Below are positions 16,510 through 38,802 of a stretch of DNA of 54,810 nucleotides, one piece after another (within the stretch, counting starts at the first letter, position 1; every line of letters begins with the position of its first letter). Where the stretch lies: NCBI GenBank assembly GCA_905182715.1, contig CAJJCP010000026.1, positions 1 through 54,810 of the forward strand, read 5' to 3'. A program made the translations under genes and the position numbers. The DNA is from an uncultured Candidatus Poseidoniales archaeon. Its GTDB lineage: Archaea > Thermoplasmatota > Poseidoniia > Poseidoniales > Poseidoniaceae. The notes beneath the pieces are model-generated. The model was not told the DNA's origin. It did not search any database and saw only the letters and a program-made list of their open reading frames with translations.

Positions 16510-19500
16510 ATGGCGCAGGGCTTGAACGCTTTGAGCCCCATGCTACGCGAGACACCCCCCCGTCGGACCACGTTGACCATCTTCCTCGTTTTGATGTTCA
16601 TCTTTGCAGATTTATTGTTACCGCAAGCACTGGAATATGACACAGAACTTGCCGAGCAGCATCACGTTTCTCTGGTTACCTCGACGGTCGCAGCTTCGTA
16701 TGACACCTCTCTCGATGAGTCCAATCCGACATCAAATTCTAATCAAACAGAGTCCGCACTTCTTGGAATCTCCGATATCGGATTTGACAGTCGACTTCTA
16801 TTTGGATTCCCGCTGAATTACACTTCATCTGACTCAATTCACTCTGCAACATTGAATCTCGTATGTGTAGAGGCTTCTCTGGCATCTCCAGATCTTTCAA
16901 TTTATGCAACAACTCCATCGTCATGGAATTCTACAACCGCTACTTGGGCTACAATCCGATACCGGTGTTCCTTGGGATTCACCCGGAGCAGATGGCTCTA
17001 CTGACCGTGGGGCTTGGGAGCCTCCATTCCGTTCATCATCCAGCGCGACATTTGCTCTCAATGTTACGGCGATCGCTCAGTCCGCAGCATCAAGGAATCA
17101 GTCCTCCGTGAACATTCTTCTTTCTGGTCATCGGTTCACAGTACGAGTGTTCACTTTCAGAAGCCACGCAACCCTCTTGATCGTCCCCAACTTGTTCTTG
17201 TGACCTCAGCCTCGGCAGCAGGTGATGGCGGTTCAGTTACTTCGGATTTCGCAGTTGACGGTATGCCATTGATGAGCGGAGATTTGATATTGACTGCTGA
17301 TACAACTCCTACACTTTCGTATAATTCCTTGATTGGAGATCATGTTGAATATCAACTTTCACTCGATCTTGAATTCAAAACCAGCACCGACCTTGGATGG
17401 CATTATTCTACGCTTTGGAATGCGTTCACAACAACATCAACCAGCGGAACTTACTCGGTTCCAGCGTCAGAACAATTTTCGAATGGAACTCATGCCTATT
17501 ATCGAGTCCGAAGTATTGACTCCACAGACACATTGAGTGATTGGTCAGCAACCCAAGATTTCCTTTTGCCTGCACATGATGTGACCGATAACGGGGATGG
17601 GACTGCAAGTATCGAGGTCGATATCGATGACCTCGGTTTATCTGATTCCTTCATCGAAGACTCCTATTCGAATCAATTGAGCAAGAATTCAAAATATGGC
17701 TCTGTCGATACCATGGAAACCAGTGTGACATCAAACAAAGAGTCGCTCATTCATCTTCGATTCAATCTTGCTTTACTTGGTCTTCCTTCGAATGCGACGA
17801 TTGTTGATGCACAAGTGAATTTAACTCGCGACTCCTCATCAAATGATGCGCTTCTTTCCATGCACGAAATGACTCCTAATCAATGGGTTGAAAGTGAAGT
17901 AACTTGGAATCGAGGTTCGAACTCAAACGTTTGGTCTGACGGTGGACGTGACTTTTCATCATCAGCATCCGATACTGGGATTAATGGTTCACAAACAAGT
18001 TCAAACTTTAGTTTTGAATTCACCAACGTATTGCAAAATTGGGTCGAGAGTGGTTCGACTGCCAGTGCAGATTTCATGATTACTGCTCGAGGGCTAAACG
18101 AAGCATACTCGACTACAGGAATCAAGAGTCGCGTCTTCTTTTCATCTGATGTTGTTATTGATGCAAAGAAACCTAAAGTTTCGATTACCTATGCCTGGGG
18201 TTCATCATCTCCTTTGATGAATGTAAGTCTAACATCCCCTCCCCCTGGAGAGGCAGTTTGGAATCAATCGGGCCATAATTTCACTGCAAACTTGACTCCT
18301 TCGATTTCGTGGATGCCAACCACCTTCTCGTATGCTATGATTCTTCAACTTGCTACCGATGAGCAATTTCGGGACCTGGTTTTTGTTTCAAATACCGTTT
18401 CAGATAGCGACTTTGCCCCTTCTGATGGCATTCTCAATATGACTGGAAACCTTACTTTGACATCAGGGAATATGTACTTTTGGAGAATGGCAAATCTTGA
18501 TTCAGATGGACGGCATGGCCCTTGGTCGACATCGAAATTCCTCGTTAGTTCACTCGAAAGTACCTGGCTCGGTGCTGACCGATATGAATTCCGAATGAAG
18601 CACGGAAATGGTACCAGCGATGGCCTTTACCCTGAATGTCTTGACACCTATGTCGACAGTGGAACTCCTTCACAGAATTACAACGATGAATCGAAACTTC
18701 AGATTGCCTACAACACGTATCCAATCGAAGCCGTCGGCCTTTTGAGTTGTAATTTACGTTCCAACCTTTTACCAGTTGGTTATGCTGTTGAATCCGCTCA
18801 CCTCTCGATGATGATCGCCAGTTCTCCTTCGAATTCACCGAATGTAGCCGTTTGGGAAAGTCGCCAACATAACTGGACTGATGAGGGCGCCACTTGGGCG
18901 ACCTATGATGGTACAAACAGTTGGGGAATGGCTGGGGCGAAAGGTTGGGAGCGTTCTTCTTTACTTGATTCAGTTCAACTGAGCACGACCTATGTGACCG
19001 GTGACCGAATCGATTGGAATGTCACTTTAGGTGTACAAAACGCAATGCGTGAAAACCGTAGTGTCGATTTCCTCATTGGTATTCTGGGTGCTGGTAGCGG
19101 CCAAACTCGTGAAGTTCAATTGTACCCTGGCTTATCTCCGGATGCGCAAAAGCCTGAATTGACTTTCGTTTATGTTCCAGGTTCAAATGTTGTACCGCTC
19201 AATCCAGTACCTTTGACTCCTCTCAATGGTACTTGGTCAATGGGAACTGGTGTTGACCAAACTCCTGAGAAACGTCCTTCGCTTACATGGTCATTTGGGA
19301 ACAACCTTGCTGTTGGTGGTTGGGCAGTCCAACTTGATACCTCGTCAACTTTTGATTCAACGGATCTTCAAACGAAGACCTCTTGGAACGATGCCGGATT
19401 TGATTCCATGAATTTTTCTTACACGCCGACTTCCGACTTGGATGATGGAGTGACATGGCATTGGAGAGTTCGGGCAATTTCCTCAACCAATCAAATTGGT

Positions 19501-22500
19501 AACTGGTCGAATTCCTTTTCCTTCATTATACCCGATTTGACCACTTGGCAAACATGCCCTGATGGTTCATGTGCTTCGGTAGAACTTCGTCATAGAGAAG
19601 CAATGCCAAGTTTAAATCTCCCGAATTTCCTTGACACATTTGTGATTGAATCCGGTGCTGGCGCTTCGAGTAGCTATAATACTTCATCACAAATGAAAGT
19701 CGGTGCTGTTGCGTATGACCGACAAGCAATTTCGCTCATTCGAATTCCTCTGGACTCTATCCCTCAACCAGTGAATGCCCGAGTTACTTCTGCTCAGATT
19801 AATCTTTACTCAGAATTTTCATCCTCCACTGGAGAACCTATTGCTGTCCGTCCAGTCTATCAGAATTGGACCATTGATGCAAATGGTTCAACCTATGACG
19901 GGACCAATAATTGGTCACAACTCGGAGGACGTGATCTTGGTGTAGACCTCGGAGCGTACGTAGATTTGCAAGACTCAGTTAGCGCTGGTTGGATGACCTG
20001 GGATGTCAGTGAGGCAGTTCAAGCAACGCTCGATGCAGGTTCTTCAACCCTTTCGTTAGCATTGTATGCTTCCAATGATATAACGGCATATTTGAACGGG
20101 CCGAATGTGGTAAGTTTTACTTCAACAGAAGGCCTTTCCTCTCAGCACCCATGGTTAAACATGACTTGGTCCAATGGCACCAGTCCAGTTCCAACTACAA
20201 CCGGTGTCAATATTGGTCCTGCCAATAATTCACTTACTTGGGACATGAACACACATGCATTATTGCCGGATGCAAGTCCGGAATTCAGTTGGTCTCACTC
20301 ATCTCCAAATTCGGTCGATGCTTGGCGAATCCACATCTTTTCCGATGTTGACGATGACATGGCTGGCCGTTATACATACGATTCACGTGATGACCCGAGT
20401 TTGTTTGACATTCAGAACCTTACCTTTACCCCATCATCGGAGATTGATTACGCTCAAACAATTCGTTGGACAGTACAATCTGTGCAAGCGGGAATGATTG
20501 GACCACAAAGTGTTTCGACAATCTTCCATATTCCGGACACTGACTCGGGAGAGATCGATTCAACTCATGCGTGGGTTTCACTTCAAGAAGGCACCATTGT
20601 CGAGTCACAAAACTATCCACTCATTACCCAAGACACCTTTTTGGATGGCGGAAACACGCTTGCTAATCAAGGAAGTTCAGGATATCTTGCAGTTGGACAA
20701 AGTCCGAGCAACAGTATTCTGCGTTCTACGAGTTTGATAGAAATTGACTTTTCGACCCTCCCTCTTCCAACTTCCTATGAAGTGAACAATGCAACATTAG
20801 AACTGACCATGCTGTCTGGTTCTGGCGAGATTTTCGTTACAGTTTCAGAAATGATCACCGGCTGGAATGAAGCCTCTAACTGGGCTCAGCCTGGAAATAA
20901 CACAACATCATGGGCAGGAACAGGTGCTTACCATTCAACTGACTCTCAAATCCCTGAAACCAATGGATTTTGGATTAACGCAACCGATGTCTTTGAAATT
21001 AACATTACTTCAATGCTCCAACATGCCATCGAACGAGGGCAAGAAAGTTTGAACATTCTCATTCAACCTGAAGAAATAGATGGAACTGTTGATGGTAGGT
21101 ATTACTTCGCAAGCAGTGAATATACCGGTGTTTCCGACCGGCCAAAATTGACAATGACGTATGAACTTACTACACCATGGTCGCCTTTGAGTCCAACGAA
21201 CATTGGACCAGTTGATGGTTCCACACTTTGGAACCTCTCCGCCCCAAAGCCAAGTGGTGCTGATATGTTCAGCACTAACTGGTCAAGTTCTTCGGCCAAC
21301 CACACTCAGTGGGTGGTCTGTGCTGCAAGCGAACCTCGAATGGTTGAAGATTTAGATTGTGCAGATACTGGTGAAATAGTTGCTGGAAACATCACGAACA
21401 CGACTTGGGATGCCCTCAACCTTACGATTACACGCACAGAATCTTCTAAAGGCGATGAATGGCAATATTGGCGAGTTCGTGGTGACCAAGATGGTCGAAT
21501 CGGTCACTGGTCCAATGTCAATAAGTTCCGAATACCTGAGGACCAAGGATTCGATGACGGGCTCGGAAATTATACTGTGCCTCTCAGCCGTGGTTCAGTG
21601 TTCTCCCAAACTGGACTCCTCCCTCTGGTCCCTGATGCTGAAGTCTCTTCTTCAGCAACCGGTAATCTTGGGTCCTCCACGCAACTGAATCTTGGAACTT
21701 CTGCGTCCGGTACTGGGGAAAGTCAAATTTATCTTGAATATGACTTGAGTTCAATGCCTTGGCCATCAACCATGACTCCAACATCGATGCTCCTCGGATT
21801 GTATCGTACCGGTGTAACTGGTACAACTTCCACGACCATTTCCGCTCACGCTTGTGGACCATTTTCAGAATCGTCTGTGAATTGGAACTCGAATGTGGTT
21901 TGCCAGACAAGTGAAATCACCCGTTCGACGCTAACCCTCTCTCCTGCTTCAGGGTGGATGGAATGGGACCTTACCAGTCTTGCCCAAGATAATGTGGCGA
22001 ATGGAAACCTTACAATGACGATTTTATTGAAGTCTGTTGGTACACCCGCTACAAACCATGCGTTTGCTTCCTCGGAAGTAAGCACTGAAACATTGCGTCC
22101 ACGATTGCTCTTACAGTATATCGATAACATCAATGGAATTCAACCTCCTGCCCAACCGGTTTTGACTTCGCCTCAAGACGGTCAAGTGTTGTACAACCAA
22201 AGCGCCTCAACTTTGCAACCTGATGACAAGCCAATTCTTTCATGGTCGCCAGTGACAGGTGCGAACGGATATATCGTGACGATTGCAAATGAAACAGGCG
22301 TCTACAAATTCAACTCTTTGGATGCAAGTGAGATCAGTGGCACATCCTTCCGATTTGCTTCCTCTCTCACAACAGGAGAAGTGTTTACTTGGTGGGTACA
22401 AGGAGTTAACCAATCGATTCCTGGACCTTCCTCTTCTCGTTGGAGTTTTGCTGTTGGAGACCCTCACCATACGGATAACAATGATTTGACCTACACCTAT

Positions 22501-25500
22501 ACATTCCAAACTGGTAATGAGGTGATTCAATACGGACACACCAATATTCGTGACACTCACTTAAGCGAAGCCTCACCTTCAACCAATTACGGAGATGCAG
22601 CACTCGTCGAATTAGGTACCTATTCGGGAGCGAATGCAGGAATGGAATCACGTTTTACTCTTGCATTAGATAACGGCCAAGTGCCTCTTCCTGCCTATGC
22701 AAATATCCATTCGGCAAGTCTTGGACTTTATCTCGATTCATGGGTTGCTACGGGTGGAGCGAATGAAATGACATTCAGTGTTCACCGAGTGCTCAATGGA
22801 AACTGGGCCCAGTCGTCTTCCACTTGGAACGCATCTTCGAGTGCCTCAACTGGTACATGGGGTACACCCGGTATGCAAGCAGGTGTCGATTATGATGCTA
22901 CACCAATTGCAACTTTTGTTGAAACTGATATGAGTGACCAGCGATGGGTTTGGTTTGATATCGGCGTCGATGGAATGTTAATTGATAACAACAACGCTTG
23001 GATTATCCTCGCGACTCCAAACCGAGGAAGTTTGCTTGCTAACTTTATCTCCAGTGAAAATGGCTTAGAGAGTTACCGTCCACAGATTCTCTTGAATCAC
23101 ACCAACCTCACTTCGATTGATTTATCGCCAACATCTCCTACAACAGATGCTGACACTTCGGTGTCCTTTTCCTATGTGGCTTCTGATCATTTGACACTGC
23201 CTATTAACGCACCAATTGTTTGGAGTGCAAGCAATGGAAGTATTTCTCAGGCTGGAGTCTTCACTCCATATGCATCTGGTCAACAGACCGTTACCGCATG
23301 CTTTGGCATTATTTGCTCGACCGAAATTGTGACGGTTGCCCCAGGTGCTCCGGTGACGTTAGTCGTTCTACCAGAATCTGCAACTCTTTCTGCAGATGAT
23401 ACTTTACAAATCACTGCTTATGTTGTTGACCAACACGGTAACGCAGTTCCTGGTCAATCAATCACCTATCTGCCGAGTAACGGTAGTATGGCTGTGACCA
23501 CTGAAGGCTTGTTTGTTCCTTATGCGAGCGGAGTTCAAACCGTTCAGGTGTCGTGGGTCGATTTGACAGGTTCCACACAAACAACAGTTGTTTCAATTAT
23601 CGTTGAGACCGGCGCTCCTTCCTACTTTGTATTGGATGGATGCCAAGGCACAGTTCCTGCAGGAATTTGGTGTGCTGTCACACATACATTGTTCGACCAG
23701 TTTAGCAATGTAATCACAGATGTTTCCGAAGCAGGTGACCTCACTTGGACCAAGACCAATGGGAATTACAGTGAAACTGGAAATGAATACTTCCCTGACC
23801 AAGTTGGAGTTTGGCATTTGAACCTCACCTCATCATCCGGTGCTGCTGGTTCTTTGATGCTGACAGTTGGTCATGGTCAAATAGCAAGTTTAGAGCTTGA
23901 TGCTTCGACCACTTCGATTACTGCTGATGAACATGTTTGGATTAACACAACTCGTATCGATGTCCGTGGAAACCGATTACCAGTTCTTTTACCAAGCGAA
24001 AACTGGGTTCAGGTTCAAGATGGACAATTGATGGTTGGAGAACCAGCAATATGGACTCCAACTTCGCGTGGTGCCAAGGTTATCGAAGCGTATTATGAGA
24101 CCATTTTCTCTCAGATCACCATTACGGTACAAGAAGGTGCAATTGTATCTTTAATTCTCATTGTTGACAATAATGTTTCAACTTGGGAATCTTTTGATAT
24201 TACTGCTGATGACCTTCTTGATGTTAAGGTCAAAGCATACGACCAGAAAGATAACCGCTGGATTATATCAGCGAACTGGTCTATCGCCCATTCTGAATGG
24301 AGTTCACAATCTGCTCTTGAGCAACTCGTTGGCGATGAAACTACTTTTGTTCCATATCTCGCCTCAACCGAACCTTATTCAATTACCGCCACATATAACG
24401 ATGGTTTCTATCTTCATGAAGTTGCTATCAATGTCACCGTCTCACACGGTGATTTGAATTCAGTTCTGTTGACTGTTACAGATTCTTCAGGTGCTGCGAA
24501 TACGGCTTTTGATATGACTGCTGATGAACATCTTGACTTCACCGTAGGACTTTCGGATTTGGATATGAATCCGATTGATCCAAGCATCTTGGTTTGGTAT
24601 CTGACCAACATGGATTCGGGCGAGTTTGAAATCATTACGGATTCTCTTCTCAATGCGAATATGCGATGGGATGCTTCACATGTTGGCAACTGGAGTATTT
24701 CTGCCTCTGCCATCAACGATGCTGGATATAATGTCAGTGATGTTGTAACCATGGTTGTCCATCACGGAGAAGCAGTTCTCATCTCTGCTGAACTTGACAC
24801 TGCTGCACAAACCGCTGGCGGTGAAATTACCATGATTGTTACTGGAGAAGATTCCGACGGAAACACATTCCCGCAACTCGTTGAATGGTCGGAAAATGGC
24901 ATCCTTGTGGAGAATATTACCTCTGGCCAAGATGAAGGAACCTACATCTATACAGCAACTCTTGCCGGACCGCACACTTTGGACTTCGCAGCCGGTAATT
25001 CTGAGAGTTTTGCGAATATCTCTGTTGACCCACTGTATGTTGTTGATTCACTCAGCATTGAACTCTCTTCAGATTCCATCGATCAATTAGGTAACTTCAC
25101 AGTGACTGTCAAGGCATTCGATGTCTATCTCAATCCAATCCCTATGCCTTCGAGTGCAAATGTCGATTCAACAGGGCGAGCAGAAGTCTTGAATCAAGGA
25201 CAAGGTGTATGGAACATCGTCACTCTTGATGATGGACCTCAAACCGTTACAATCACTGCTGGAAAGGTTTCTGAAGAACGGACGATAGAAGTTACCGGAA
25301 ACATAGGTGGTTTCTTCAAGGCAGGAGGCGCTCTTTACTACGTTGGTGCAGTTCTCATCGCTATCGTCAGTCTTGTCATTATCGGGTTACTTGTTGCAAC
25401 CTTACGCGGTGGAGATGCCGACTATGATGATGAGATGACGATGACGATCAATACGACGATGACAATGCTCCTTCTGGTCCAACGCCTGGACCGAGCGGTC

Positions 25501-25703
25501 CTGCGCCTGGTACGGCACCCGGTCCAAGCGGTCCCGCGCCGGAAAGGAAAACTGTTCCAGAAATTGAGGCAGTGACCGAAGACACTTCGTGGCAAGTTGA
25601 ACATCGTGTTGATGATGACGGTACCGAATGGGCCCAAGATGAAAACGAAATTTGGTATTACCGCCAAGAAGGCGAAACCGAATGGGGCGAATGGACGGAC
25701 TAA
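16510..25703 (+). CDS. Giant surface protein with DNRLRE-like, FN3-like and Ig-like repeats (frame broken in places)
   Basis: About 3,060 residues once the frame is joined. A signal/anchor segment lies near the N-terminus (TLTIFLVLMFIFADLLLPQA). To about residue 2,190, about seven DNRLRE-like beta domains (marked by ESEVTWNRGSNSNVWSDGG, TDEGATWATYDGTNSWG, NWTIDANGSTYDGTNNWSQL) alternate with FN3-like modules (WHWRVRAISSTNQIGNWSNS). Then come about eight bacterial Ig-like (Big2/invasin-type) domains (IVWSASNGSISQAGVFTPYA). A membrane span (ALYYVGAVLIAIVSLVIIGL) is followed by an Asp-rich and Pro-Gly-Ser tail and a Trp-rich end (TEWAQDENEIWYYRQEGETE). Three plus-one shifts at about 16951, 17126 and 17173, and a missing base near 25433, break the frame. 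The role is probably adhesion or polymer binding at the surface; no catalytic domain is visible. Confidence 0.85.
25475..25550 (+). repeat. Pro-Gly-Ser-rich repeat in the cytoplasmic tail of the giant protein
   Basis: In the tail frame the stretch encodes PSGPTPGPSGPAPGTAPG followed by PSGPAP, an imperfect repeat of PSGPxPG. It lies between the Asp-rich stretch after the membrane span and the Trp-rich end. This reading needs one base added near 25433. Confidence 0.6.
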
Positions 25704-25745
25704 TCCGTCATACCTTTGATAAATGTTGAAACTCAATGTGATCTT

Positions 25746-28394
25746 ATGCGAACCTTTAGCGAACTCCGAACATGCATGCTTAGCATGCTTTGTATTGTAT
25801 TGTTTACGTTCCACGGTATGAATACCGCAGTAACGCACTCTTCATTGGATGAAGCGCAACTTCTTGCTCGGGCTGGAACGCCTGTTCGGGTCGAAGTGGT
25901 CGCCGAGATGACGACTCTTTCTGCTGATGAAGTCACGATGTTTACAGCCGACTTGTATGACTCTGTCAACAACCTTGCAACAGGTGAAGTGTCTTGGAGT
26001 TGTTCAAATGGCTCAATCTCTCCTGATGGAATGTTTTACCCTTGGAGTTCAGGAGTCATCACAATCGAAGCATCTCACAATGGCTTGGTTGGTTCGGTCA
26101 ACATCACAGTAACTCCTGGTGTTGGTCAATCGCTTGAAATTACAAGTTTGAACGCCCACGCATTGGTCCCAGTTTCGCTTTCATCAAACCTCCTTGATGC
26201 ACGCCAGAATCCCCAAGCAGCACAGAATGTTGTATGGACTGTTGACGGAGTATACCTTGGAGTAGGAAATCCTTCATGGACGCCTCAAGATACTGGCACG
26301 TATATTCTCCGAGCTCGACTTCACCAGATGGAACATATAGCGACCATGGTGGTCACTGCTGGAACTCCGCATGAATTTGTACTTGATGAAGGCTTACAAG
26401 TTCGAAGTGGGCATTCTCTTTTCATCACACCACAACTCCTCGATATCAATGGCTTTGAAATGAACATCACCGAAGCGGGTAACCGTGTTTGGACTGTTGA
26501 AAATGGTAGCATTCTTCCGTCGGGTTGGTTCACAGGTTCACATCCTGGATACTGGAACATAAGCGTAGCGGCTGGAGATGTTGTCGGCTTCGGAATAATT
26601 CGAGTCGTACCTGCCGATGCAGCACTTTCACAAATTGTGGTTCTCTCCGATGACCAAAAATTCACTGCAGGTACATCGTATGAACTTGCAGCAATGCGTA
26701 CCGATTCACAGGGATATACTGGTACGATTATACCACCATTGGCGAACTTCACAGTGACCAGTGGCGGACTGGCTACCATGAATGATGGAGTTCATTGGAC
26801 TCCAGGTGCAATGGGTATGCATCAACTTCGAGTTGTTGATGATGGTGTGATTTCGACTCTTAATGTTGAAGTTGTTCACGGCCAAGCAATCGACACCTTC
26901 CTTCAACTTACACCAACGAACTTAGTCGCAGGAGAACAGAGTTCAGTCATCTTCACTGCAATCGATGTTGTCGGCAATCAATGGATGGTCAATGGTTCCT
27001 TAACGATGGTGAACGGAAACAATTCACAATTCATTGCATACGATGGTTATGCTACAATCACTCCACAACAAGTGATGACATGGAGAGTTGAAGGTTCATG
27101 GTTCGACTTAAAGACCGATACTCGCTTTGAGTCAGTCTTTCAAATGCAGTCACAGCCTGGGCGATTAGCCTTCATCCAAATAAACGGTGAAGGCGATATT
27201 TTGCCGTCAGATACAGCCTTATCTCTTGACCCGCTCTTTTTTGATAGTTATTCGAATCCTCTCGAAGAAATTGGGCTAAATTGGACCGTTGATGGTTCAG
27301 ATGTAACCGTCGATGTTCTTCTTTCAAACCTTCACTGGATTCCAACTGAAGTCGGTGGACATGAAATTAGAGCAAATGCCGACGGGGTTTTCGCAACGGT
27401 CCGCTTAACGGTCGTTGCGGGGGAGGCTCGAAACTTGGTCACCGATGTTGAAGACGGTTTGTTCGTTCAAGCCGGAGTGGCGAGTGAACTGTTTATTCAA
27501 TCCATTGATGCACATGGCAACCTTGCTCCTTCAACCAATGTGACAACGACATTAGAGACTGAATACGGTACATTACAAGCGTCTTCATCAGGAAATGGTT
27601 ACTGGGATCTGGTTGGTCAAACTGCAGGTACCTATACCCTTCAACTCGTTCAAGATGGAGCAATGCACAGTATCCCACTTATCGTTGAACCTGGTGCTGC
27701 GGTAAGACTTGTGTCTTCTATTGAAGACCAAAGTATCGCCCAAGGGGACACAGTTCTTCTTCGAGTCCAAGGCGTTGATATCTTTGACAACATCGTTACG
27801 GTCGATGCAAAAAATACGACAGTCAGTTGCACTTCCGGTTCGGCTGAACACGTGACTTCCGATACGTGGGAGTTGGATGTGTCGGCTTCAGGAAATGACC
27901 GCTCTTGTAACGTTCTTTGGAATGGCCTCATCTCACAAAATTACTTTGATGTTGAATCTGTTCTTCTTGGAGGAGCGGTAGGTTCGACGAACACCGCTAT
28001 GGGCCTTGGAATCTTTTTGTTAACACTTATTCTTGTCACTCTAGTGGTCCTCGTTCGCCGAGCGAATCAACAAGATGAGGATTGGGTTGAAGATGCCTTT
28101 GAAGATGAAGATGAGGATGAAGACGAATTCGACGAAGAAACACAAGCTGAATCTACCGAAGAAGCCCTCATGAACGAAACTCCTGCACCGAATTCGGATG
28201 GAACTAATACATCTGAATCGGGCATTTTGACCGATGAATTACGAGCAACTCTCGCTCAACAAGCATCCGAAGTCGGCGTCATGCAAGCGGCTCCAGGAAC
28301 TGAACAGGGCTCAAGTGGTTGGTACGTCGATGTCAGCAGTGAAGTCCAATATTGGAATGTGGGTGCTGATGGTTCTTGGACCCGAGGTGAGTAG
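25746..28394 (+). CDS. Secreted Ig-like repeat protein with C-terminal anchor, related to the preceding gene
   Basis: 882 residues from ATG at 25746 (MRTFSELRTCMLSMLCIVLF); a TTG at 25716 is possible. A signal peptide is followed by about eight Big2/invasin-like domains, each with a GxVSWSCSNGSISPDGMFYP-type core (also HEFVLDEGLQVRSGHSLFIT, PDTALSLDP-type edges). A membrane span lies near 765-790 (TAMGLGIFLLTLILVTLVVL). Then comes a very acidic tail (EDEDEDEDEFDEETQ) and a Trp-containing end (GWYVDVSSEVQYWNVGADGS). The layout and the domains match the C-terminal third of the giant protein 42 bases upstream, so the pair likely arose by duplication and may be co-transcribed. Surface-structure role; ligand unknown. 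Confidence 0.85.
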   Translation: MRTFSELRTCMLSMLCIVLFTFHGMNTAVTHSSLDEAQLLARAGTPVRVEVVAEMTTLSADEVTMFTADLYDSVNNLATGEVSWSCSNGSISPDGMFYPWSSGVITIEASHNGLVGSVNITVTPGVGQSLEITSLNAHALVPVSLSSNLLDARQNPQAAQNVVWTVDGVYLGVGNPSWTPQDTGTYILRARLHQMEHIATMVVTAGTPHEFVLDEGLQVRSGHSLFITPQLLDINGFEMNITEAGNRVWTVENGSILPSGWFTGSHPGYWNISVAAGDVVGFGIIRVVPADAALSQIVVLSDDQKFTAGTSYELAAMRTDSQGYTGTIIPPLANFTVTSGGLATMNDGVHWTPGAMGMHQLRVVDDGVISTLNVEVVHGQAIDTFLQLTPTNLVAGEQSSVIFTAIDVVGNQWMVNGSLTMVNGNNSQFIAYDGYATITPQQVMTWRVEGSWFDLKTDTRFESVFQMQSQPGRLAFIQINGEGDILPSDTALSLDPLFFDSYSNPLEEIGLNWTVDGSDVTVDVLLSNLHWIPTEVGGHEIRANADGVFATVRLTVVAGEARNLVTDVEDGLFVQAGVASELFIQSIDAHGNLAPSTNVTTTLETEYGTLQASSSGNGYWDLVGQTAGTYTLQLVQDGAMHSIPLIVEPGAAVRLVSSIEDQSIAQGDTVLLRVQGVDIFDNIVTVDAKNTTVSCTSGSAEHVTSDTWELDVSASGNDRSCNVLWNGLISQNYFDVESVLLGGAVGSTNTAMGLGIFLLTLILVTLVVLVRRANQQDEDWVEDAFEDEDEDEDEFDEETQAESTEEALMNETPAPNSDGTNTSESGILTDELRATLAQQASEVGVMQAAPGTEQGSSGWYVDVSSEVQYWNVGADGSWTRGE

Positions 28395-28563: not shown

Positions 28564-30246
28564 TCATCCTTCTTCGTGGAAATCATTTTCAAATGCCGTG
28601 ATGAACTCATCAATATCAATCACTCCATTTTCATCTGCATCTGATTTGTGGAAGATGTCGCGGTATTCATCATTTGAATAATTGAAGTCAAGGGCCTTGA
28701 GTGCGTTGATGAACTCCGGTACAGTGAGGTGGTTCTTTTGACCAAGGTCTGCAGCCTTGAACGCAGCCAGTCGGAGTTTGTGTTCAGCTTCTGTTGGATT
28801 AGAGAATTGTTTCCTGAGGCTTTGGAATGGAGTCGTACGAATTTGGCTGTGCTTTCTACCATAGCCATAGTAGGTTATTGTTCCAAGAGTAACTGCGGCT
28901 CCAGCTCCAATGAATGCTTTACTTCCCATGAGGTAAATCAGCGCCATACCGGCAACGATACCCCAAATCTGAATCCACGGATATAAGTGTGATTTGTATT
29001 CCGGTTTGTACCATGTTTGTGCTTGAGGCGAGCGTCGAAGTATAATTACACAGGAATTAATCATCATGAACACCATGATTTTGAAACCTGATGCCAACTT
29101 AGCAACATCCTTCACAGGCAAGTACAGTATGGCAAGAAGCATAGCTAATCCAGTAATGATAATCGGCCAATGTGGAGTTTCATATCTTGCATTGACAGTT
29201 TCAAGAGATTGAGGCAGGAGGTTGTCACGTGCCATGGCAAACAAGAATCGTGACGCTGCCAGAATACCAGCGAGCGCCATTGAGATCATCGTTAACACCG
29301 CTAATGCTGCTGCAAGTGCGCCGACCTTTGAACCAGCAATGACTTTAACGAAATAATAGACTGGGTCTTCGATTGGCTCACCACCTATTGATTGGCCAGT
29401 CAAGTACCAGTAATCTGGAAGTGCAGCCATCATCACATAGGTTACGACACAATAGAGGATGGTGGCAATCAACAAGGAAATCATGATTCCAAGTGGGAGG
29501 TTACGACCTGGTTCCTTCACTTCACCACCAATGGCTGCCACTTTTGTTACACCTGCGTAAGCCACAAACACGAATGCTGCAGTTTCTGCAATAGTTGCTA
29601 ACGACTGGTCAAAAGCACCGTCTCCACCGTTAAGAGGGCGTGAAAAGTCAGTGGCGGGGTCGAATAACGCAACAATACAGATAATCCCCAACAAGAGCAT
29701 AGTGACGGCAAGGATTGGAGTTTGGATGGCTTTCACCTTTTTGACACCGAAAATATTCACTACGGTGATGAGAATAAGAGCGCCAACCGAAATCCACTGA
29801 AGATTATTTTTGGTAAGTTCAAATTCGAAGTAGGTGGTGAGTGCATACATGTATGCTGAAAATCCGATTAAAGCAAACGACGCTTTGAGAAGGAATGAGG
29901 CCCATAAACCAAGCCCGCTGATAGTTCCAAACAAGGGGCCATAGGTTCGTTCAAGGTAGACATAGGACCCACCACTCGAAGGCATAGCAGAGGCGAGTTC
30001 GGATTTAGAGAGTGCACCAGGTAACACCACAGTTGCCGCAAGTAAGAATGCCAACCAAATTCCAGGCCCCATCATTTGGGCGGCAAAAGCAGGCATCACA
30101 AAAAGACCAGAACCAAGCATTGAGGACAATGATATAATGACGATACCGGAAAGTCCAATGGTTCGTTCAATCGTTTTAGAAATGTCATCTATAACGCCAC
30201 GAACATCACCTTGGATGAGTTTTTCTGCTGTGCCTTTCAAATCCAT
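28564..30246 (-). CDS. APC-family amino acid permease with C-terminal EF-hand domain
   Basis: 560 residues. Residues about 28-455 form a 12-span APC transporter: SGIVIISLSSMLGSGLFVMP is the conserved first span, and AFVFVAYAGVTKVAAIGGEV with KEPGRNLP is the consensus segment in the middle. The last about 75 residues are soluble and carry an EF-hand pair. The first loop (DLGQKNHLTVPE, about 500-511) is degenerate. The second (DADENGVIDIDE, about 536-547) has all canonical calcium ligands. Calcium control of uptake is inference. The gene lies 106 bases downstream of the dioxygenase-deaminase gene on the same strand, suggesting import of the pathway substrate or a precursor such as an aromatic amino acid. 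Substrate specificity cannot be read from sequence. Confidence 0.92.
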   Translation of the reverse strand: MDLKGTAEKLIQGDVRGVIDDISKTIERTIGLSGIVIISLSSMLGSGLFVMPAFAAQMMGPGIWLAFLLAATVVLPGALSKSELASAMPSSGGSYVYLERTYGPLFGTISGLGLWASFLLKASFALIGFSAYMYALTTYFEFELTKNNLQWISVGALILITVVNIFGVKKVKAIQTPILAVTMLLLGIICIVALFDPATDFSRPLNGGDGAFDQSLATIAETAAFVFVAYAGVTKVAAIGGEVKEPGRNLPLGIMISLLIATILYCVVTYVMMAALPDYWYLTGQSIGGEPIEDPVYYFVKVIAGSKVGALAAALAVLTMISMALAGILAASRFLFAMARDNLLPQSLETVNARYETPHWPIIITGLAMLLAILYLPVKDVAKLASGFKIMVFMMINSCVIILRRSPQAQTWYKPEYKSHLYPWIQIWGIVAGMALIYLMGSKAFIGAGAAVTLGTITYYGYGRKHSQIRTTPFQSLRKQFSNPTEAEHKLRLAAFKAADLGQKNHLTVPEFINALKALDFNYSNDEYRDIFHKSDADENGVIDIDEFITAFENDFHEEG

Positions 30247-30352: not shown

Positions 30353-31789
30353 TTACTCAGCCGGCGGCGCTTTGGCAATGACCTTCATTTCAACAGCAAT
30401 CGGTGTAGGAAGGGCTCGAATGGCGAGTGTAGTTCGGGTCGGTCCTACTTGGCCAAGGGTTTCTGCCCAGACTTCATTGTAACCTTGGAAGTCACGATCC
30501 ATATCGACGAGGAAAGAAGTAACATCAAGAACATCATTGATTGTTCCTCCTGCTTCTTCAAGAATCCGTGTAATGTTATCTACAACCGCTTGAGTTTGTG
30601 CTTTAATGTCATAATTGAGTGGTTTTCCATCTGCATCATGAATGGGTCCACCAGGTATTGCATTGGTCCCCGGTTGCCGTGGACCCACGCCTGAGAGGTA
30701 GAGTAAGTCTCCAACTCGTCGAGCATGCGGATAAGCCCCCACTGGTTTTGGAGCAGCCGCACTGTTAACAGAATCTTTACCTTCAGTTGGATCCCATAAA
30801 GCAGGGCCATTTTCCTGTGGTTCTCCTGGTTTTGATTCGACATTTACAGAATCGATTTCTTGATGATCACTTTGGTCACCGTCCAATACATTTCTCTCAC
30901 CAGCGAAATATTCGACGTCATCTTCATCGTATTCGATGTCTCCCGCCCCAGAAGGTGTCGGATCGAGGTGAACAACTGCTCCACCAGCACCGTGCAGTGC
31001 TTCATAGGCAAGTACTTGTCCAGTCAAGTTGTTTCTGTTTGAATTCATTCCTGAAAGCCACCACATTGGCTTGAATGCTACGACCTTATTGACTCGAATT
31101 TGTCGATGAATCGTACGTGAGAGTTGGCCAACATCTTCGAGACGTCCTTCGCCTAATAACTCGAGAATCTTCAGATTCCATTCATCATCTTTCAGAGAAT
31201 GAATTCGGTCATCTTTTGGTTCAATTGGTTTGGTGAACATTCGATTGGAAAGGGACATTGCTGTGATTGCGATTGCTTTTCTTCCGGTTGCTTTGACAAC
31301 ATCCATGCATGCTTTGGCAAGAACGGTTGTTTCAGCACGGTTCGCATAGACATTCGAAGATACGATGACTGCAGGGATGGCATTGTCGGGATTCAAAAGT
31401 TTCAGTGCAACCACAGAACCGACATCAATTGGGAATCCATGGTAGGCAACTGTTCGACTTTTGAGGCCACGCTTTTCATTTGCTTCGTTCCAAGCGTGTG
31501 CAAACTTTTCATCAATGTTAAACGAATAAGGAATCGAACCCAATTCGTGGAAATCATGGTCGACCATGACCCATTCTGGATTTGGGTCTGCAATGATTTG
31601 GTGTCCAATAATACTGGGCCAAGTGGTTGAATAGATGATGAGAAGGTCCGCCCCACTCTCCTTGATACGCTGTGCGGCGTCATCATAGGCTGTGCGTAAT
31701 CGTCCCCAGCCTTCATTTTGCTCAGGAGCTAACACTGTATGAGGATGAACGGGAACGATGTATGAACCAATTAATTCTCCCTCACTCAT
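30353..31789 (-). CDS. Fusion: 2-aminophenol-1,6-dioxygenase alpha-like + RidA/2-aminomuconate deaminase-like
   Basis: 478 residues. Residues about 1-275 are LigB-fold and match the alpha subunit of 2-aminophenol 1,6-dioxygenase (GADLLIIYSTTWPSIIGHQI; YHGFPIDVGSVVALKLLNPD). Thr-Thr replaces the Pro-His that supplies the second iron ligand, so this half is probably non-catalytic. An acidic linker follows (about 280-340, EYDEDDVEYFAGERNV). Residues about 342-478 are RidA-fold and closest to 2-aminomuconate deaminase (YPHARRVGDLLYLSGVGPRQ; DIKAQTQAVVDNITRILEEA), with the conserved Arg (about 452, GPTRTT) and Glu (about 467, VEMKVIA). It would stabilise ring cleavage and hydrolyse 2-aminomuconate to 4-oxalocrotonate plus ammonia. 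Its start overlaps the beta-subunit stop by four bases (ATGA). Confidence 0.88.
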   Translation of the reverse strand: MSEGELIGSYIVPVHPHTVLAPEQNEGWGRLRTAYDDAAQRIKESGADLLIIYSTTWPSIIGHQIIADPNPEWVMVDHDFHELGSIPYSFNIDEKFAHAWNEANEKRGLKSRTVAYHGFPIDVGSVVALKLLNPDNAIPAVIVSSNVYANRAETTVLAKACMDVVKATGRKAIAITAMSLSNRMFTKPIEPKDDRIHSLKDDEWNLKILELLGEGRLEDVGQLSRTIHRQIRVNKVVAFKPMWWLSGMNSNRNNLTGQVLAYEALHGAGGAVVHLDPTPSGAGDIEYDEDDVEYFAGERNVLDGDQSDHQEIDSVNVESKPGEPQENGPALWDPTEGKDSVNSAAAPKPVGAYPHARRVGDLLYLSGVGPRQPGTNAIPGGPIHDADGKPLNYDIKAQTQAVVDNITRILEEAGGTINDVLDVTSFLVDMDRDFQGYNEVWAETLGQVGPTRTTLAIRALPTPIAVEMKVIAKAPPAE

Positions 31790-32688
31790 TCACTCGCCTC
31801 CTTGTGGTTTCGAGCAGGCCATTCAACAATGGCATTACCTGTGCCGATGATGGTTCCATAGCCATGAAGAATTCCAGGATAGGTGGGGACATCAAGGGTT
31901 GAAAGAAGCCATGAAAGTCCTCCGCCATCACTTTCTGCGATTGCTTGTTCAGTAAACTCTGGCATTTCATCAAGAATTCGCTGTGCTTGACCAGTACGGA
32001 AATATTCAATCATACGCATGTCCCACAAATGCATTGCATGGCTGGCGATGTGCTCTTTACTCATGTCTTCAGGGATTGCAGATTCTGTGGTGAAATGGCG
32101 GTGTGAGAGGGAATTACTTGCAATGACGACGACTTTCTTTCCACTTGCTAGAATTGCCTCACGAGTAACGCGCCCTAATTCAATCATCATTTCTTGCATC
32201 ACTTCAACCGAATAATAGTCTCGAGAGCGATTGCTCGAAATGACCACTAAAGGCTTGTCCCAAGAAGGATTGAACATGTGTCCAGTGGTAATTGCACCAT
32301 AATCAACACGGAAGTCCGGATTTTTCATCATTGCTACTGCCAAGCCAGCATCAGCAGCACGGTCATGGATTTGTTGTGCGAGTTCGACGTCAATATCGAG
32401 GTCATAGTGGTAGCGGAACAGGTTTGGAAACACGGGGTCGACGGAGAGACTCTTGAAATTAGGAAGCCCGAGGAAATGGGTTCCCACATAGGTTTGCCAG
32501 TGTGGCGAAAGCAAAACAATCGCATCATAGTCGACTCCAGCAAGAGATTCTCGTAGTCGCTCATATCCCCAACGCAACTGTTCCCAACCGCCTTCGGCAA
32601 TGGGTTCATTTTGTGGCGGATTCTCTGCATAGACCAAGTGAGGCGGGTGAGGGGCTAAACAACCTGCGACAATTTCACCCTTCGACAT
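31786..32688 (-). CDS. 2-aminophenol-1,6-dioxygenase beta-like extradiol dioxygenase
   Basis: 300 residues, LigB superfamily, catalytic subunit. It strongly resembles AmnB-type proteins through APHPPHLVYAENPPQNEP, GGWEQLRWGYERLRES and NPDFRVDYGAITTGHMFNPS. The iron ligands expected from the family structure are present: His14, His63 (LLSPHW) and Glu252 (AIAESDGGG), plus the catalytic His196 (NSLSHRHF). The family opens the ring of 2-aminophenol between C1 and C6 with Fe(II) and O2, giving 2-aminomuconate 6-semialdehyde; relatives act on 4-amino-3-hydroxybenzoate. It is the first gene of a minus-strand unit followed by the fused alpha-RidA gene and the permease. Substrate is inferred, not proven. 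Confidence 0.92.
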   Translation of the reverse strand: MSKGEIVAGCLAPHPPHLVYAENPPQNEPIAEGGWEQLRWGYERLRESLAGVDYDAIVLLSPHWQTYVGTHFLGLPNFKSLSVDPVFPNLFRYHYDLDIDVELAQQIHDRAADAGLAVAMMKNPDFRVDYGAITTGHMFNPSWDKPLVVISSNRSRDYYSVEVMQEMMIELGRVTREAILASGKKVVVIASNSLSHRHFTTESAIPEDMSKEHIASHAMHLWDMRMIEYFRTGQAQRILDEMPEFTEQAIAESDGGGLSWLLSTLDVPTYPGILHGYGTIIGTGNAIVEWPARNHKEASE

Positions 32689-34911: not shown

Positions 34912-36369
34912 TCAAACAGAATCTTGGTTTTTAACACAAACATTCGTCATCTCGGAAAAGAAATCGAGGGACCATTGTCCTCCTTCTCGACCGACACCCG
35001 AATTCTTTACTCCGCCAAAGGGAGTGCGTAAATCTCTGTGAAGCCAAGTGTTTACCCAGACAATTCCCGAATCTATTTTTTCTGAAAATGACCGTCCTCG
35101 CGCTAAATCCTTCGTCCATACTGAACCTGCAAGGCCGTATTCAGAAGCATTGACCATCCCCAATGCTTCATGTTCAGTCGAGAATGTATGCAAGGTTACC
35201 ATCGGTCCAAATATTTCTTCAGTCGCACAGCGAGAGGTATGAGGTAGATGAGCGACAACGGTTGGTTGTAAAAAGGCCCCAATTCCTTGTGGTCCAGCGA
35301 ATCCAGTCATCTTTCGTGTCCCACCGGTTAACACAGTGCCGCCTTCTTCTATTGCCAACTCAATATACGATTCCACTTTGAGCAGATGTTCAGGTGAAAT
35401 GACGGAGCCCATAGTTGTGTGCTCATCCATCGGGTTACCGATTTTGATGGCATTGACTTTCTCGACAAATTTGTCTGTGAATTGTTCAGAAATACTCTCA
35501 TCGATGAATATTCGAGAACCACATAGACACACTTGACCCGAATTCGTGAATGCTGCACGAACTGCTCCATCAACAGCATTCTCGAGTTCAGCATCTTTCA
35601 ATATGATTGTCGCATTTTTACCACCGAGTTCCAGTGATAACTTCTTGAACATAGGAGCAGCAGTACGCGCCACGATTCTTCCAGTCTCGGTGCCACCTGT
35701 GAAGGAGATCGCCTTGATTTTTGGATGCTCAAGTATGGCTTGACCAACTTCTGGGCCTAATCCGTGAACAAGATTGAATACACCTTTTGGCAAGTCGAGT
35801 TCGAGTAAAGTTTCAGCCAAAAGATGGGCAGTGAGAGGTGTGACTTCACTTGGCTTGGCGACGATTGTATTTCCCATAAGGAGTGCAGGAGCTACTTTCC
35901 AAGTCAACAGATAAAGTGGGAGATTCCAAGGAGTAATCAAACCAACCGTTCCAACAGGAGAGCGGTGAACGTAATTCATAGCGTCTTCCATTTCGAATGT
36001 CATTTCAGTCTGTTGCCTTCCAAATGAAGCGAAAAACCGAAAATTACTCACTGACCGTGCAGCATCGACGCTTCGTGCTAATGCAATTGGCTTTCCCGTG
36101 TCCATTGACTCTGTTTGCGCAATGAGTTCAGTTTTTTCCTCAAGAGCGTCGGCGATTTTATCCAACCAAACTGCCCGTTGTTCCAATGTCAAAGCTGTCC
36201 AAGCAGGTTGAGCGGATTGAGCAGCCGATACGGCGAGTTCAACATCCTCCGATTGTGAACGCGGGATGGTTGCAATGCATTGAGCAGTTGCTGGGTTGAA
36301 GTCTTCAATGTATTTGGCACCGAGAGCTTGAGTAAAGGCGCCATCGATGAAGTTCTGGATGTTGAGCAT
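34912..36369 (-). CDS. 2-aminomuconate-6-semialdehyde dehydrogenase-like ALDH
   Basis: 485 residues from ATG at 36369, which has GAGGTG six bases upstream; a GTG at 36375 overlaps the previous stop. The NAD-dependent aldehyde dehydrogenase fold shows VGLITPWNLPLYLLTWKVAP (Asn of the oxyanion hole), ISFTGGTETGRIVA, KLSLELGGKNATIIL (general base Glu), NSGQVCLCGSRIFID (catalytic Cys) and EEIFGPMVTL. The C-terminal segment VWVNTWLHRDLRTPFGGVKN followed by SGVGREGGQWSLDFFSE closely resembles hydroxymuconic/aminomuconic semialdehyde dehydrogenases (AmnC, ALDH8A1). In the pathway it oxidises the dioxygenase product to 2-aminomuconate. Its start overlaps the asparaginase-like gene. Confidence 0.9.
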   Translation of the reverse strand: MLNIQNFIDGAFTQALGAKYIEDFNPATAQCIATIPRSQSEDVELAVSAAQSAQPAWTALTLEQRAVWLDKIADALEEKTELIAQTESMDTGKPIALARSVDAARSVSNFRFFASFGRQQTEMTFEMEDAMNYVHRSPVGTVGLITPWNLPLYLLTWKVAPALLMGNTIVAKPSEVTPLTAHLLAETLLELDLPKGVFNLVHGLGPEVGQAILEHPKIKAISFTGGTETGRIVARTAAPMFKKLSLELGGKNATIILKDAELENAVDGAVRAAFTNSGQVCLCGSRIFIDESISEQFTDKFVEKVNAIKIGNPMDEHTTMGSVISPEHLLKVESYIELAIEEGGTVLTGGTRKMTGFAGPQGIGAFLQPTVVAHLPHTSRCATEEIFGPMVTLHTFSTEHEALGMVNASEYGLAGSVWTKDLARGRSFSEKIDSGIVWVNTWLHRDLRTPFGGVKNSGVGREGGQWSLDFFSEMTNVCVKNQDSV

Positions 36370-36371
36370 AT

Positions 36372-37487
36372 TCACACCTCGACATCATACAACCAACGGT
36401 CTTGGTCAGGGTCCCATTCATCCCATGTTGGTAATGTTTCGAGTTGTGGCAAATAGTGTTCAGGAACGATGCCTGGGACGATGAATGCTTTTTGTCGATG
36501 CAATGGGTAAGGATTACGCAGATCAATTCCTAAGACGCCTAAGACGGCACGTGCAACATACCACATGGCTTGTGAATTCCATCCATGTGCAATTTTGACA
36601 ACAATTCCCAAGCCTTTGGGATAATCGGGATGTTCTATTGCGAGTCCAAGCAAGCCATCCGCTCCTTCTTTGGCAATGACTTTGCCGCCACCAGCCTTGA
36701 GAATGGTTGAATCAAGTCGATTGAATCCACCAACCAAGTCCGGACTACGAACCATTGATTCCCAAATCCAATCGTTGTCTTTGTCCCGCACTAAGCCGGC
36801 ATAGATTTGCGCGAGTTCAGCAACTGTATTGGAAACTGTAGGGAGTCCACATCCATCTTTTGCAATACGCAATGGTTTCCAATCTTTGCCGAGATAGGTT
36901 CGTAATTCGACCATGTATGCATCGAATACTTCGTGGGTAGGCAAGGTGTACCCCGCTCGATTCCATCCCTTCTTCCGGCATCCATGAAGAATAGCAGCAT
37001 GTTCTCCAGAGCAGGTGTGGAACCAACGACGAGGTCGGCGTACTTGACGGCCAAATTGAATCAGAGGGACATCTAAGGGCGTGAGCATGAGTGGCCATTC
37101 TTCTTCTGAAAGAAGAGATTGTGCAGCAGCGACGTGTTCTGTATCGCCGTTATGTGATGCAACAGCAATCGCTTTTTGTTCCCACGAAGTATCTTTTAAT
37201 TCTTCAGTGAAGGCCTTGAGCATAAATGGTTTCATCATTGAGCGGCCATAACACAATACGTTTCCACCAAAGGAATGAATCACTTCATCACCATGTGACC
37301 ATGCGATTGCGCCGTGAATTGTGGTTTCTGATACACCGTTTCTGCGATAATCAACCAAAGGTTCCCAAGCTACTTCACGGCCTGTAGGGATTCCTTCGAC
37401 TTTTTCACCGAGTGGTGAATCAGGAAACAAGGAACTTCCTGGTTTTCCCGGTTCAACAGCGGATGGTGTATCATGTTGAATCGCCAT
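36372..37487 (-). CDS. Asparaginase II-family amidohydrolase, altered active site
   Basis: 371 residues from ATG at 37487, preceded by GAGGTGA. It belongs to the Rhizobium etli-type asparaginase family (PF06089), unrelated to GatD. Visible motifs: VLCYGRSMMKPFMLKAF (the Ser-x-x-Lys pair), HTCSGEHAAILHGC (family CSGKH, here with Glu for Lys), AKDGCGLPT (the second conserved Cys) and GGGKVIAKEGADGLLGLAI (conserved Lys). In the family the CSGKH Lys and the two Cys form a zinc site, so the change to Glu may shift chemistry or substrate. It sits between the flavin monooxygenase and ALDH genes with overlaps, so a role on an amide in the same pathway is possible but inferred. Confidence 0.87.
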   Translation of the reverse strand: MAIQHDTPSAVEPGKPGSSLFPDSPLGEKVEGIPTGREVAWEPLVDYRRNGVSETTIHGAIAWSHGDEVIHSFGGNVLCYGRSMMKPFMLKAFTEELKDTSWEQKAIAVASHNGDTEHVAAAQSLLSEEEWPLMLTPLDVPLIQFGRQVRRPRRWFHTCSGEHAAILHGCRKKGWNRAGYTLPTHEVFDAYMVELRTYLGKDWKPLRIAKDGCGLPTVSNTVAELAQIYAGLVRDKDNDWIWESMVRSPDLVGGFNRLDSTILKAGGGKVIAKEGADGLLGLAIEHPDYPKGLGIVVKIAHGWNSQAMWYVARAVLGVLGIDLRNPYPLHRQKAFIVPGIVPEHYLPQLETLPTWDEWDPDQDRWLYDVEV

Positions 37488-37491
37488 ATGT

Positions 37492-38742
37492 TCACCTCGA
37501 TTCAAGTATTTTTTCGACACGAGGCACAACGTGCTTCATGTAAGCAGTCATGTCTCTACAGACTCGGTCAGAGTCGTGATTAAAGAAATCAAACCATGCC
37601 ATGATTCGGTCTTCAGGATGGAACCGTTCCAGAATCTGTTGGGTTACTTCTTCGATGTTTCCAATCAAAGCGTTTTGTGCAGCATTTTCAACTTTCGACG
37701 GGTCAATGGTTCCTTCCAAAGCATTCCAGTAGGCGCCGAGGGCCGCCTTTGCTTCTTTCTTTGCAGACTCGCTTTGCTGTTCAGGTGTCAATCCATCCTC
37801 CGCATTGAGGAATATGAAAGAAGTACGGGGCATATCACTTCGCTTCCATGCTCCACCTGCTGGATGGAATGCCTCACGCATGCGGTCATGTGTGGCGTCA
37901 ATAACTTCAGGTTTCGTGATTGATAAATTGAATACCTTGACCGGCAAAATGGTATTGAGAAATACCTGTGCATTTGGGTCATGTGTTCCTGCAACCATCA
38001 CGAGTAATTCACGACGGAAATGTTGCGGGATTATTTTCAAGTCTTCAAAGACGTAACGCTTAGGGATTTCAATTTCTTCGGGAGCGGATTCCAAGTTCTC
38101 AAATTCTATCGCTGCATTTTGAACTTTTTCCCAATCTTCATCGCTTCGGAAATTACCACGTCGAAGAACGGTTGAATGGGTCATCTCTGAATTGACGATA
38201 TCACCGCGCAGAAGTCGCAAAAAGATGTCTCCTGCTTCCATGAATATTTGGCCACGAAGTGCAGGCCAAGCAGCCTCTTCGATTGAATTTCGAGGAATGA
38301 TTCCGTAAGGCCGTGCCATGAATTCAAACCGTCCTGCTGAAAAACCAACGTGGAGTTTACGCTTCTCATTCGGATTGAGTCCGTGCAGTTGGAGTGTATT
38401 CGCAATTCGTTCTGCTTGAGCAATCGGTCCGCCGGATGCTAGTATTGAAACGACCGCACTTCCAATTTCAATCGATTGTGTTCTTCGAAATGATTCCATT
38501 GCCAATTGCGGAAAATCAGTGCAAAGCCCAACTTCGCCCAGCCAGTGGGGGACGACAGGTTTTGAGTTTGACTTTTGAATCTCGGTAGATAAATGGGCTT
38601 GTGCAATCCATCCGACGCCGAAACCAAGTGCGTCTGCACACTCCAGTTGTTGGAAATAATTGGCAAACATCTCTTGCTCGCTAGGAATCAAACCCGTTGA
38701 ATCCGGAGTTTGACTGATTGAGAAGAATATGTCATGCTCCAT
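37492..38742 (-). CDS. Luciferase-like flavin-dependent monooxygenase
   Basis: 416 residues from ATG at 38742 (MEHDIFFSISQTP); an ATG at 38778 is possible. The bacterial luciferase-like (F420/FMN) TIM barrel is shown by ECADALGFGVGWIAQAHLST, TQSIEIGSAVVSILASGGPI, AQAERIANTLQLHGL and LHVGFSAGRFEFMARPYGII, followed by NALIGNIEEVTQQILERF near the end. Members oxygenate or dehydrogenate diverse substrates using reduced FMN or F420. It is the upstream gene of an overlapping unit with the asparaginase-like and ALDH genes (the next ATG lies five bases past its stop). It may prepare the aromatic substrate for ring opening, but the reaction cannot be read from sequence. Confidence 0.88.
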   Translation of the reverse strand: MEHDIFFSISQTPDSTGLIPSEQEMFANYFQQLECADALGFGVGWIAQAHLSTEIQKSNSKPVVPHWLGEVGLCTDFPQLAMESFRRTQSIEIGSAVVSILASGGPIAQAERIANTLQLHGLNPNEKRKLHVGFSAGRFEFMARPYGIIPRNSIEEAAWPALRGQIFMEAGDIFLRLLRGDIVNSEMTHSTVLRRGNFRSDEDWEKVQNAAIEFENLESAPEEIEIPKRYVFEDLKIIPQHFRRELLVMVAGTHDPNAQVFLNTILPVKVFNLSITKPEVIDATHDRMREAFHPAGGAWKRSDMPRTSFIFLNAEDGLTPEQQSESAKKEAKAALGAYWNALEGTIDPSKVENAAQNALIGNIEEVTQQILERFHPEDRIMAWFDFFNHDSDRVCRDMTAYMKHVVPRVEKILESR

Positions 38743-38802
38743 GGGTGGCACCAATCCTTCCAGTTGAAACCACATCATAACGAGTGTGGCTCATTGCGAT
38801 GG

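Follow-up and report, generated by a model that had tools for sequence, protein, structure and literature searches.

The window, by which we mean the whole stretch of 54,810 nucleotides analysed here, from an archaeon of the Ca. Poseidoniaceae (Marine Group II), carries a gene for an APC-family permease with an EF-hand pair at its C-terminus. The parts of the gene and the neighbours upstream of it are:

28564..30246, (-) strand: APC-family permease with C-terminal EF-hand pair, 560 aa, ATG start
28843..30174, (-) strand: 12-TM APC transport core, GkApcT/CAT-like, residues 25-468 (Pfam AA_permease_2, Foldseek, AlphaFold helices)
28804..28833, (-) strand: conserved linker helix motif T-P-[WFI]-x-[TS]-[FLV]-[RK]-x-x-[FLY], residues 472-481 (column counts, AlphaFold)
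28585..28791, (-) strand: EF-hand pair, residues 486-554 (Pfam EF-hand_7, AlphaFold, Foldseek)
28714..28749, (-) strand: EF loop 1, pseudo-loop, DLGQKNHLTVPE, residues 500-511 (sequence; ortholog counts)
28606..28641, (-) strand: EF loop 2, canonical, DADENGVIDIDE, residues 536-547 (sequence; ortholog conservation)
30353..31789, (-) strand: 2-aminophenol 1,6-dioxygenase alpha-like protein (LigB) fused to RidA/2-aminomuconate deaminase; upstream, co-directional, conserved neighbour
31786..32688, (-) strand: 2-aminophenol 1,6-dioxygenase beta-like protein (LigB), catalytic by homology (8ihg_A, E 8e-104)
34912..36375, (-) strand: 2-aminomuconate 6-semialdehyde dehydrogenase-like protein, further upstream (4u3w, E 2e-142)

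Genomic context of the permease

The permease neighbours appear, by homology, to form an amn-type 2-aminophenol meta-cleavage operon comprising alpha subunit, beta subunit, deaminase and semialdehyde dehydrogenase. The LigB-RidA protein matches the alpha subunit (3vsg_A, 2e-38) as well as the deaminase (6izh, 4e-26), and is thus a natural fusion of an alpha-type subunit with the next-but-one-step enzyme. Among 128 ortholog loci, counting permeases that kept or lost the tail, 109 have a homolog of it upstream in the same orientation, in both families of the order. The position of the permease behind dioxygenase genes, pointed out in the earlier note, is therefore real and conserved across the order, and these genes can now be named as 2-aminophenol-type.

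Because the permease is co-directional with an ortho-aminophenol ring-cleavage operon order-wide, its probable substrate is an aromatic amino acid or some derivative of one, a kynurenine-type compound being plausible. That tryptophan may be channelled into ring cleavage is hinted at by a tryptophan 2,3-dioxygenase in the source genome (G000:C34:19030-20034, 4e-60). A search of this genome, which is 73% complete, gave no kynureninase, and the substrate route is thus incomplete.

Two very large repeat-rich ORFs of 2853 and 892 aa, in the opposite orientation, follow immediately downstream of the permease (window 17014-28394), and relatives of the 892-aa ORF adjoin the permease in many genomes. 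Beside an asparaginase-II gene, a 428-aa protein (window 37492-38778) has no match in Pfam, NCBIfam or the PDB.

Transport core and topology

The permease is a CAT/GkApcT-like member of the APC superfamily, as judged from a profile that covers the whole transmembrane region and from its LeuT-type 12-TM fold. The Pfam scan of the ORF matches AA_permease_2 at residues 31-441 (E 5.4e-43), and GkApcT is the PDB sequence match of the core (1.8e-33). The AlphaFold model, built from a 100-row alignment, contains 12 TM helices (mean pLDDT 80.8), and a Foldseek search with it ranks the CAT homologue 6f34/5oqt first, with a TM score of 0.84. The NCBIfam scores stay below the curated cut-offs of both TIGR00909 (205 bits vs 557) and BcaP (193 bits vs 690), which places the permease, by sequence, in the same family area and outside those subfamilies. 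It is the one AA_permease_2 protein of the source genome (1.78 Mb, 73% complete).

In ApcT and GkApcT, a lysine in TM5 is involved in proton coupling. The residue aligned with it in the GkApcT comparison is T182, and the column holds T, S, A, M or L in 130/130 orthologs and never K. With this lysine replaced throughout, proton coupling may differ from that of ApcT/GkApcT. The APC fold has an N-in/C-in topology and, since 12 TM helices are modelled, the EF-hand tail is predicted to be cytoplasmic.

A calmodulin-like EF-hand pair follows a short linker helix

The tail matches Pfam EF-hand_7 as a pair at residues 494-552 (E 1.4e-8, above the curated cut-off), EF-hand_1 as a single strong hand at residues 527-553, and by its sequence alone retrieves calmodulin from the PDB (7.8e-8). 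In the model, EF helices span residues 486-499, 509-518, 525-535 and 545-554, with paired strands at 506-507 and 543-544. Modelled on its own, the tail (pLDDT 85.8) again folds into a pair of helix-loop-helix units bridged by two short strands; Foldseek matches it to the N-lobes of calmodulin and centrin (TM up to 0.84) and to the regulatory domain of the human ATP-Mg/Pi carrier. The model is that of a calmodulin-like EF-hand pair, with two helix-loop-helix units and a short beta bridge. The earlier note's description of an APC transporter ending in an EF-hand pair is thus borne out by both Pfam matches and the modelled fold.

It had also read one of the two loops as fully canonical, and this agrees with our analysis. 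Loop 2, DADENGVIDIDE, has the full ligand set, with E at position 12, the Ca2+-selective form. Loop 1, DLGQKNHLTVPE, retains positions 1, 8 and 12 and lacks the ligands at 3 and 5. Judged from these residues, loop 2 would be a working-type Ca2+ loop and loop 1 its paired pseudo-loop, comparable to single-site EF-hand sensors. Cooperative two-site Ca2+ binding is therefore unlikely.

A linker helix modelled at residues 473-481 joins the tail to the permease. Among tail-keepers its motif is well kept (T472 in 99/102, P473 in 102/102), and it has decayed in a 15-row tail-less clade. The amphipathicity of the helix is unexceptional, with a hydrophobic moment of 0.50 that 13% of shuffles reach.

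The EF-hand tail is conserved across the order

A permease homolog is present in 173 of 194 genomes of the order. In an ortholog alignment of genes from 130 rows, covering both families, 102 carry the EF-hand tail, again in both families and at identities down to ~45%. The combination of APC permease and EF-hand tail is thus the rule in Poseidoniales, order-wide and apparently ancestral. An assembly or gene-calling artefact, in which an EF-hand gene was wrongly fused to the permease, can practically be dismissed, as can a chance fusion: the same single open frame recurs in ~100 separate genomes and is conserved throughout the order. We note that a contig scan aimed at relatives in other phyla returned as its sole matches five Poseidoniales loci 93-97% identical to the query, because its patterns came from one sequence.

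We took a loop as canonical when it has ligands at positions 1, 3, 5 and 12 together with G6. By this definition loop 2 is canonical in 100/101 full tails, vs 0.12% of shuffled tails. D1 and G6 occur in all 101 rows, position 3 is D/N/E/S, position 5 is N/D/S/T, and position 12 is E in 91. Loop 1 is canonical in just 11/101 tails and degenerate in the remaining 90; its D1 is kept in 88, L8 in 97 and E/Q12 in 102/102. In a 100-sequence alignment, D536, G541, F496 and F532 belong to the ~60 invariant columns of the entire protein.

Nonsynonymous differences per site follow the same pattern. Between ortholog pairs of 75-99.5% core identity they are lowest at the key positions of loop 2 (0.05), rise through the TM core (0.10), the tail (0.17) and the linker (0.25), and reach 0.40 at the extreme C-end. 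Owing to saturation of synonymous sites in these pairs, the values are relative, with no dN/dS claimed. They suggest strong purifying selection on the tail. It is accordingly very improbable that the tail has lost metal binding in vivo and persists by drift as an EF-hand-derived fold; the degenerate first loop and repeated losses of the tail (see below) would fit such decay, but the ligand positions are among the tail's most conserved sites and the second loop is nearly always canonical.

Several conserved residues are not ligands. F496 and F532 are invariant, R529 and H533 nearly so, and together they point to a candidate binding surface. The tail might then dock a partner, such as a signalling protein or the operon's own ring-cleavage enzymes, through the R529/H533/F532 face, with Ca2+ dependence being secondary. 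The conserved non-ligand residues and the conserved operon with its dioxygenase genes speak for such docking. However, tail-less orthologs remain in the same operon, so that operon association is independent of the tail, and we regard partner docking as unlikely.

The face could also contact the transport core. In a search for residues lost together with the tail, E349 (TM8-9 loop) and P473 were altered jointly with TM1 residues in one large tail-less clade. A docking contact between E349 and R529/H533 is only a hint, because E349 and P473 are unchanged in the other tail-losers.

Probable tail loss and a swappable C-terminal slot

On a FastTree of the permease core without the tail, tail state changes at least 7 times: the tail is absent from two large clades (8 and 15 rows) and from five single rows. 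These changes are best read as losses, the simplest reading given that tail-keepers occur in both families and on either side of the midpoint root, although the direction lies beyond proof by the core tree. Dioxygenase genes lie upstream of 26/27 tail-less genes, in the same operon position. Since the operon position is usually kept, the tail-less permeases are orthologs in which the tail was lost in place. A search downstream of them gave no convincing tail relic, the best match being weak (E 0.008, L048). Two tail-less orthologs, L046 and L177, have a common short C-terminal motif (NIQDSVVIDS and SINDSVVTDS, respectively).

Relatives in other Thermoplasmatota, mostly 33-39% identical, align only to residue ~465-490 and then continue into other soluble domains. 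In three such proteins scanned with Pfam, a Usp domain is C-terminal in L166 (E 2e-18) and L159 (E 2e-16), and PTS_EIIA_2 in L163 (E 3.7e-13); no EF hand was seen in the other-Thermoplasmatota relatives read. With Usp and EIIA domains in the same C-terminal place, sensor-type domains seem to be exchanged there, and the permease C-terminus would be a swappable slot for cytoplasmic domains of this type: EF-hand, Usp, EIIA or none. One non-Poseidoniales Thermoplasmatota genome (L158, G222:C32) has two APC genes with long Usp-like C-terminal domains near each other.

Other EF-hand modules on membrane proteins of the order

EF-hands are frequent in these archaea. The source genome has 17 EF-hand_7 matches at E up to 0.01, and PF13499 matches occur in 47/48 sampled Poseidoniales genomes vs 6/146 of other Thermoplasmatota. 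Earlier work noted families of calcium-binding domains that are specific to the two families of Poseidoniales (PMC9258230). We also note that two contig ends of the source genome (L006, G000:C5, and L007, G000:C29) bear identical stretches of a His/Asp/Glu-rich, metal-binding-like EF-hand protein, probably one repeat-rich gene broken by assembly.

A second type of EF-hand pair is found in three further membrane proteins. In A/V-type ATPase subunit I it is inserted in the N-terminal domain before the TM part, with both loops canonical (G000:C34:31352-33694; L005, L179); the insert is present in 16/16 sampled genomes of the source genus, and none of the subunit I loci read from other genera showed it. 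In a sister genus, an EF-hand pair lies between SGAVIH and MGGL of a NuoL/ND5-type complex I subunit (L211, G043:C5; L212, G072:C36). This pair is 60-68% identical to the A-ATPase module and, by its position relative to E. coli NuoL, is probably in the cytoplasmic TM11-12 loop. A 656-aa multi-TM protein with no other Pfam family (L209, G000:C2:19743-20027; L210) ends in an EF pair of the same module type. The second module is 59-73% identical between its hosts and shares only 33-35% identity with the permease tail; a shared recent origin of the permease tail and the A-ATPase/NuoL module was rejected on these values. It follows that several EF modules are attached to membrane transport proteins in the order, which makes a general cytosolic Ca2+ control more credible, short of proof.

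Comparison with known systems and proposed function

The best sequence and fold match of the permease is the GkApcT and CAT/SLC7 branch (PDB 5OQT, 6F34; MmCAT1, 9FQT), which shares the 12-TM LeuT-type fold; unlike the Poseidoniales permease, these entries are without an EF-hand. The Thermoplasmatota permeases L159, L166 and L163 have a related core (~30-39% identity) and a soluble domain in the same C-terminal place, but their regulatory fold differs. With the N-lobes of calmodulin and centrin the tail has the EF-hand pair fold in common; it differs from them in having one full Ca2+ site of two in most orthologs and in being permanently tethered to a transporter.

The mitochondrial ATP-Mg/Pi carriers (SCaMC) similarly combine a solute carrier with a calmodulin-like EF-hand domain through a linker helix, and their regulatory domain (4ZCU) resembles the permease tail model. 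They differ in being SLC25 carriers of a eukaryotic organelle with an N-terminal domain of four EF-hands, whereas the permease has an APC fold and one C-terminal EF pair in an archaeal membrane. The ATP-Mg/Pi carrier is Ca2+-regulated, with a proposed locking-pin mechanism (PMC6283063), and this model is the closest worked example for the permease.

We favour, at a probability of roughly 0.55, an amino-acid importer of the plasma membrane whose cytoplasmic tail would be a built-in, Ca2+-responsive regulator. Ca2+ would bind loop 2 on the cytoplasmic side, and binding would alter how far the hydrophobic face of the EF pair is exposed or how the pair holds the linker helix or the core. The altered hold on linker helix or core would in turn alter transport, and the imported substrate would feed the adjacent ortho-aminophenol ring-cleavage operon. 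Against this reading, the permease survives tail loss, and the tail is thus unnecessary for transport; loop 1 is degenerate, and the linker helix does not stand out in amphipathicity.

The mitochondrial aspartate/glutamate carriers aralar and citrin are a further case of amino-acid carriers with EF-hands on one membrane side, albeit with an SLC25 fold and eight EF-hands. The EF-hand domain of citrin, similar as it is, does not regulate transport, and citrin mutations in the N-terminal domain and at the dimer interface influence localisation (PMC11539162). This precedent weighs against a regulatory tail and would suit a pair with constitutively bound Ca2+ (or Mg2+) whose role lies in assembling, dimerising or stabilising the permease and not in dynamic gating, as would the one degenerate loop in most orthologs. 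Such a structural role fits less well with the regulatory-type ligand set of loop 2 including its prevalent E12, with a tail dispensable in at least 7 lineages, and with the sensor-type domains that fill the slot in relatives. We consider it a distinctly weaker explanation, somewhat ahead of partner docking, than the Ca2+-responsive importer.

Discussion

The earlier note called EF-hands on APC permeases unusual in prokaryotes. This may hold outside the order, in that our literature search found no paper joining EF-hands, amino acid transporters and the APC superfamily, and the relatives scanned in other Thermoplasmatota have Usp or EIIA domains instead; within Poseidoniales it does not, the architecture there being the rule. 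The calcium-gated uptake envisaged in the same note stays a proposal. The parts are each known; what is unmatched in the literature searched is an APC amino-acid permease with an EF-hand pair as an order-wide, apparently ancestral trait. Eukaryotic organelles have transporters gated directly by an attached EF-hand; for prokaryotic amino-acid uptake no such case was found in the literature searched.

A broader proposition, which we advance tentatively, is that cytosolic Ca2+ acts in Poseidoniales as a second messenger tuning membrane transport and energy conversion. Independent additions would have placed EF-hand modules on the cytoplasmic side of the permease (order-wide), A-type ATP synthase subunit I (one genus), the proton pump NuoL of complex I (another genus) and a further multi-TM protein, in a prokaryotic parallel to the way calcium controls mitochondrial carriers and bioenergetics.

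The permease itself is a strong and testable candidate for prokaryotic nutrient uptake under calcium control. Its C-terminal slot is a place where evolution appears to swap regulators, and the natural tail-less orthologs are ready controls. If the proposed function is true, the old question of prokaryotic cytosolic Ca2+ signalling would become testable on one purified protein, and Ca2+ gating would be the norm for this importer in a group of archaea that is abundant in the ocean.
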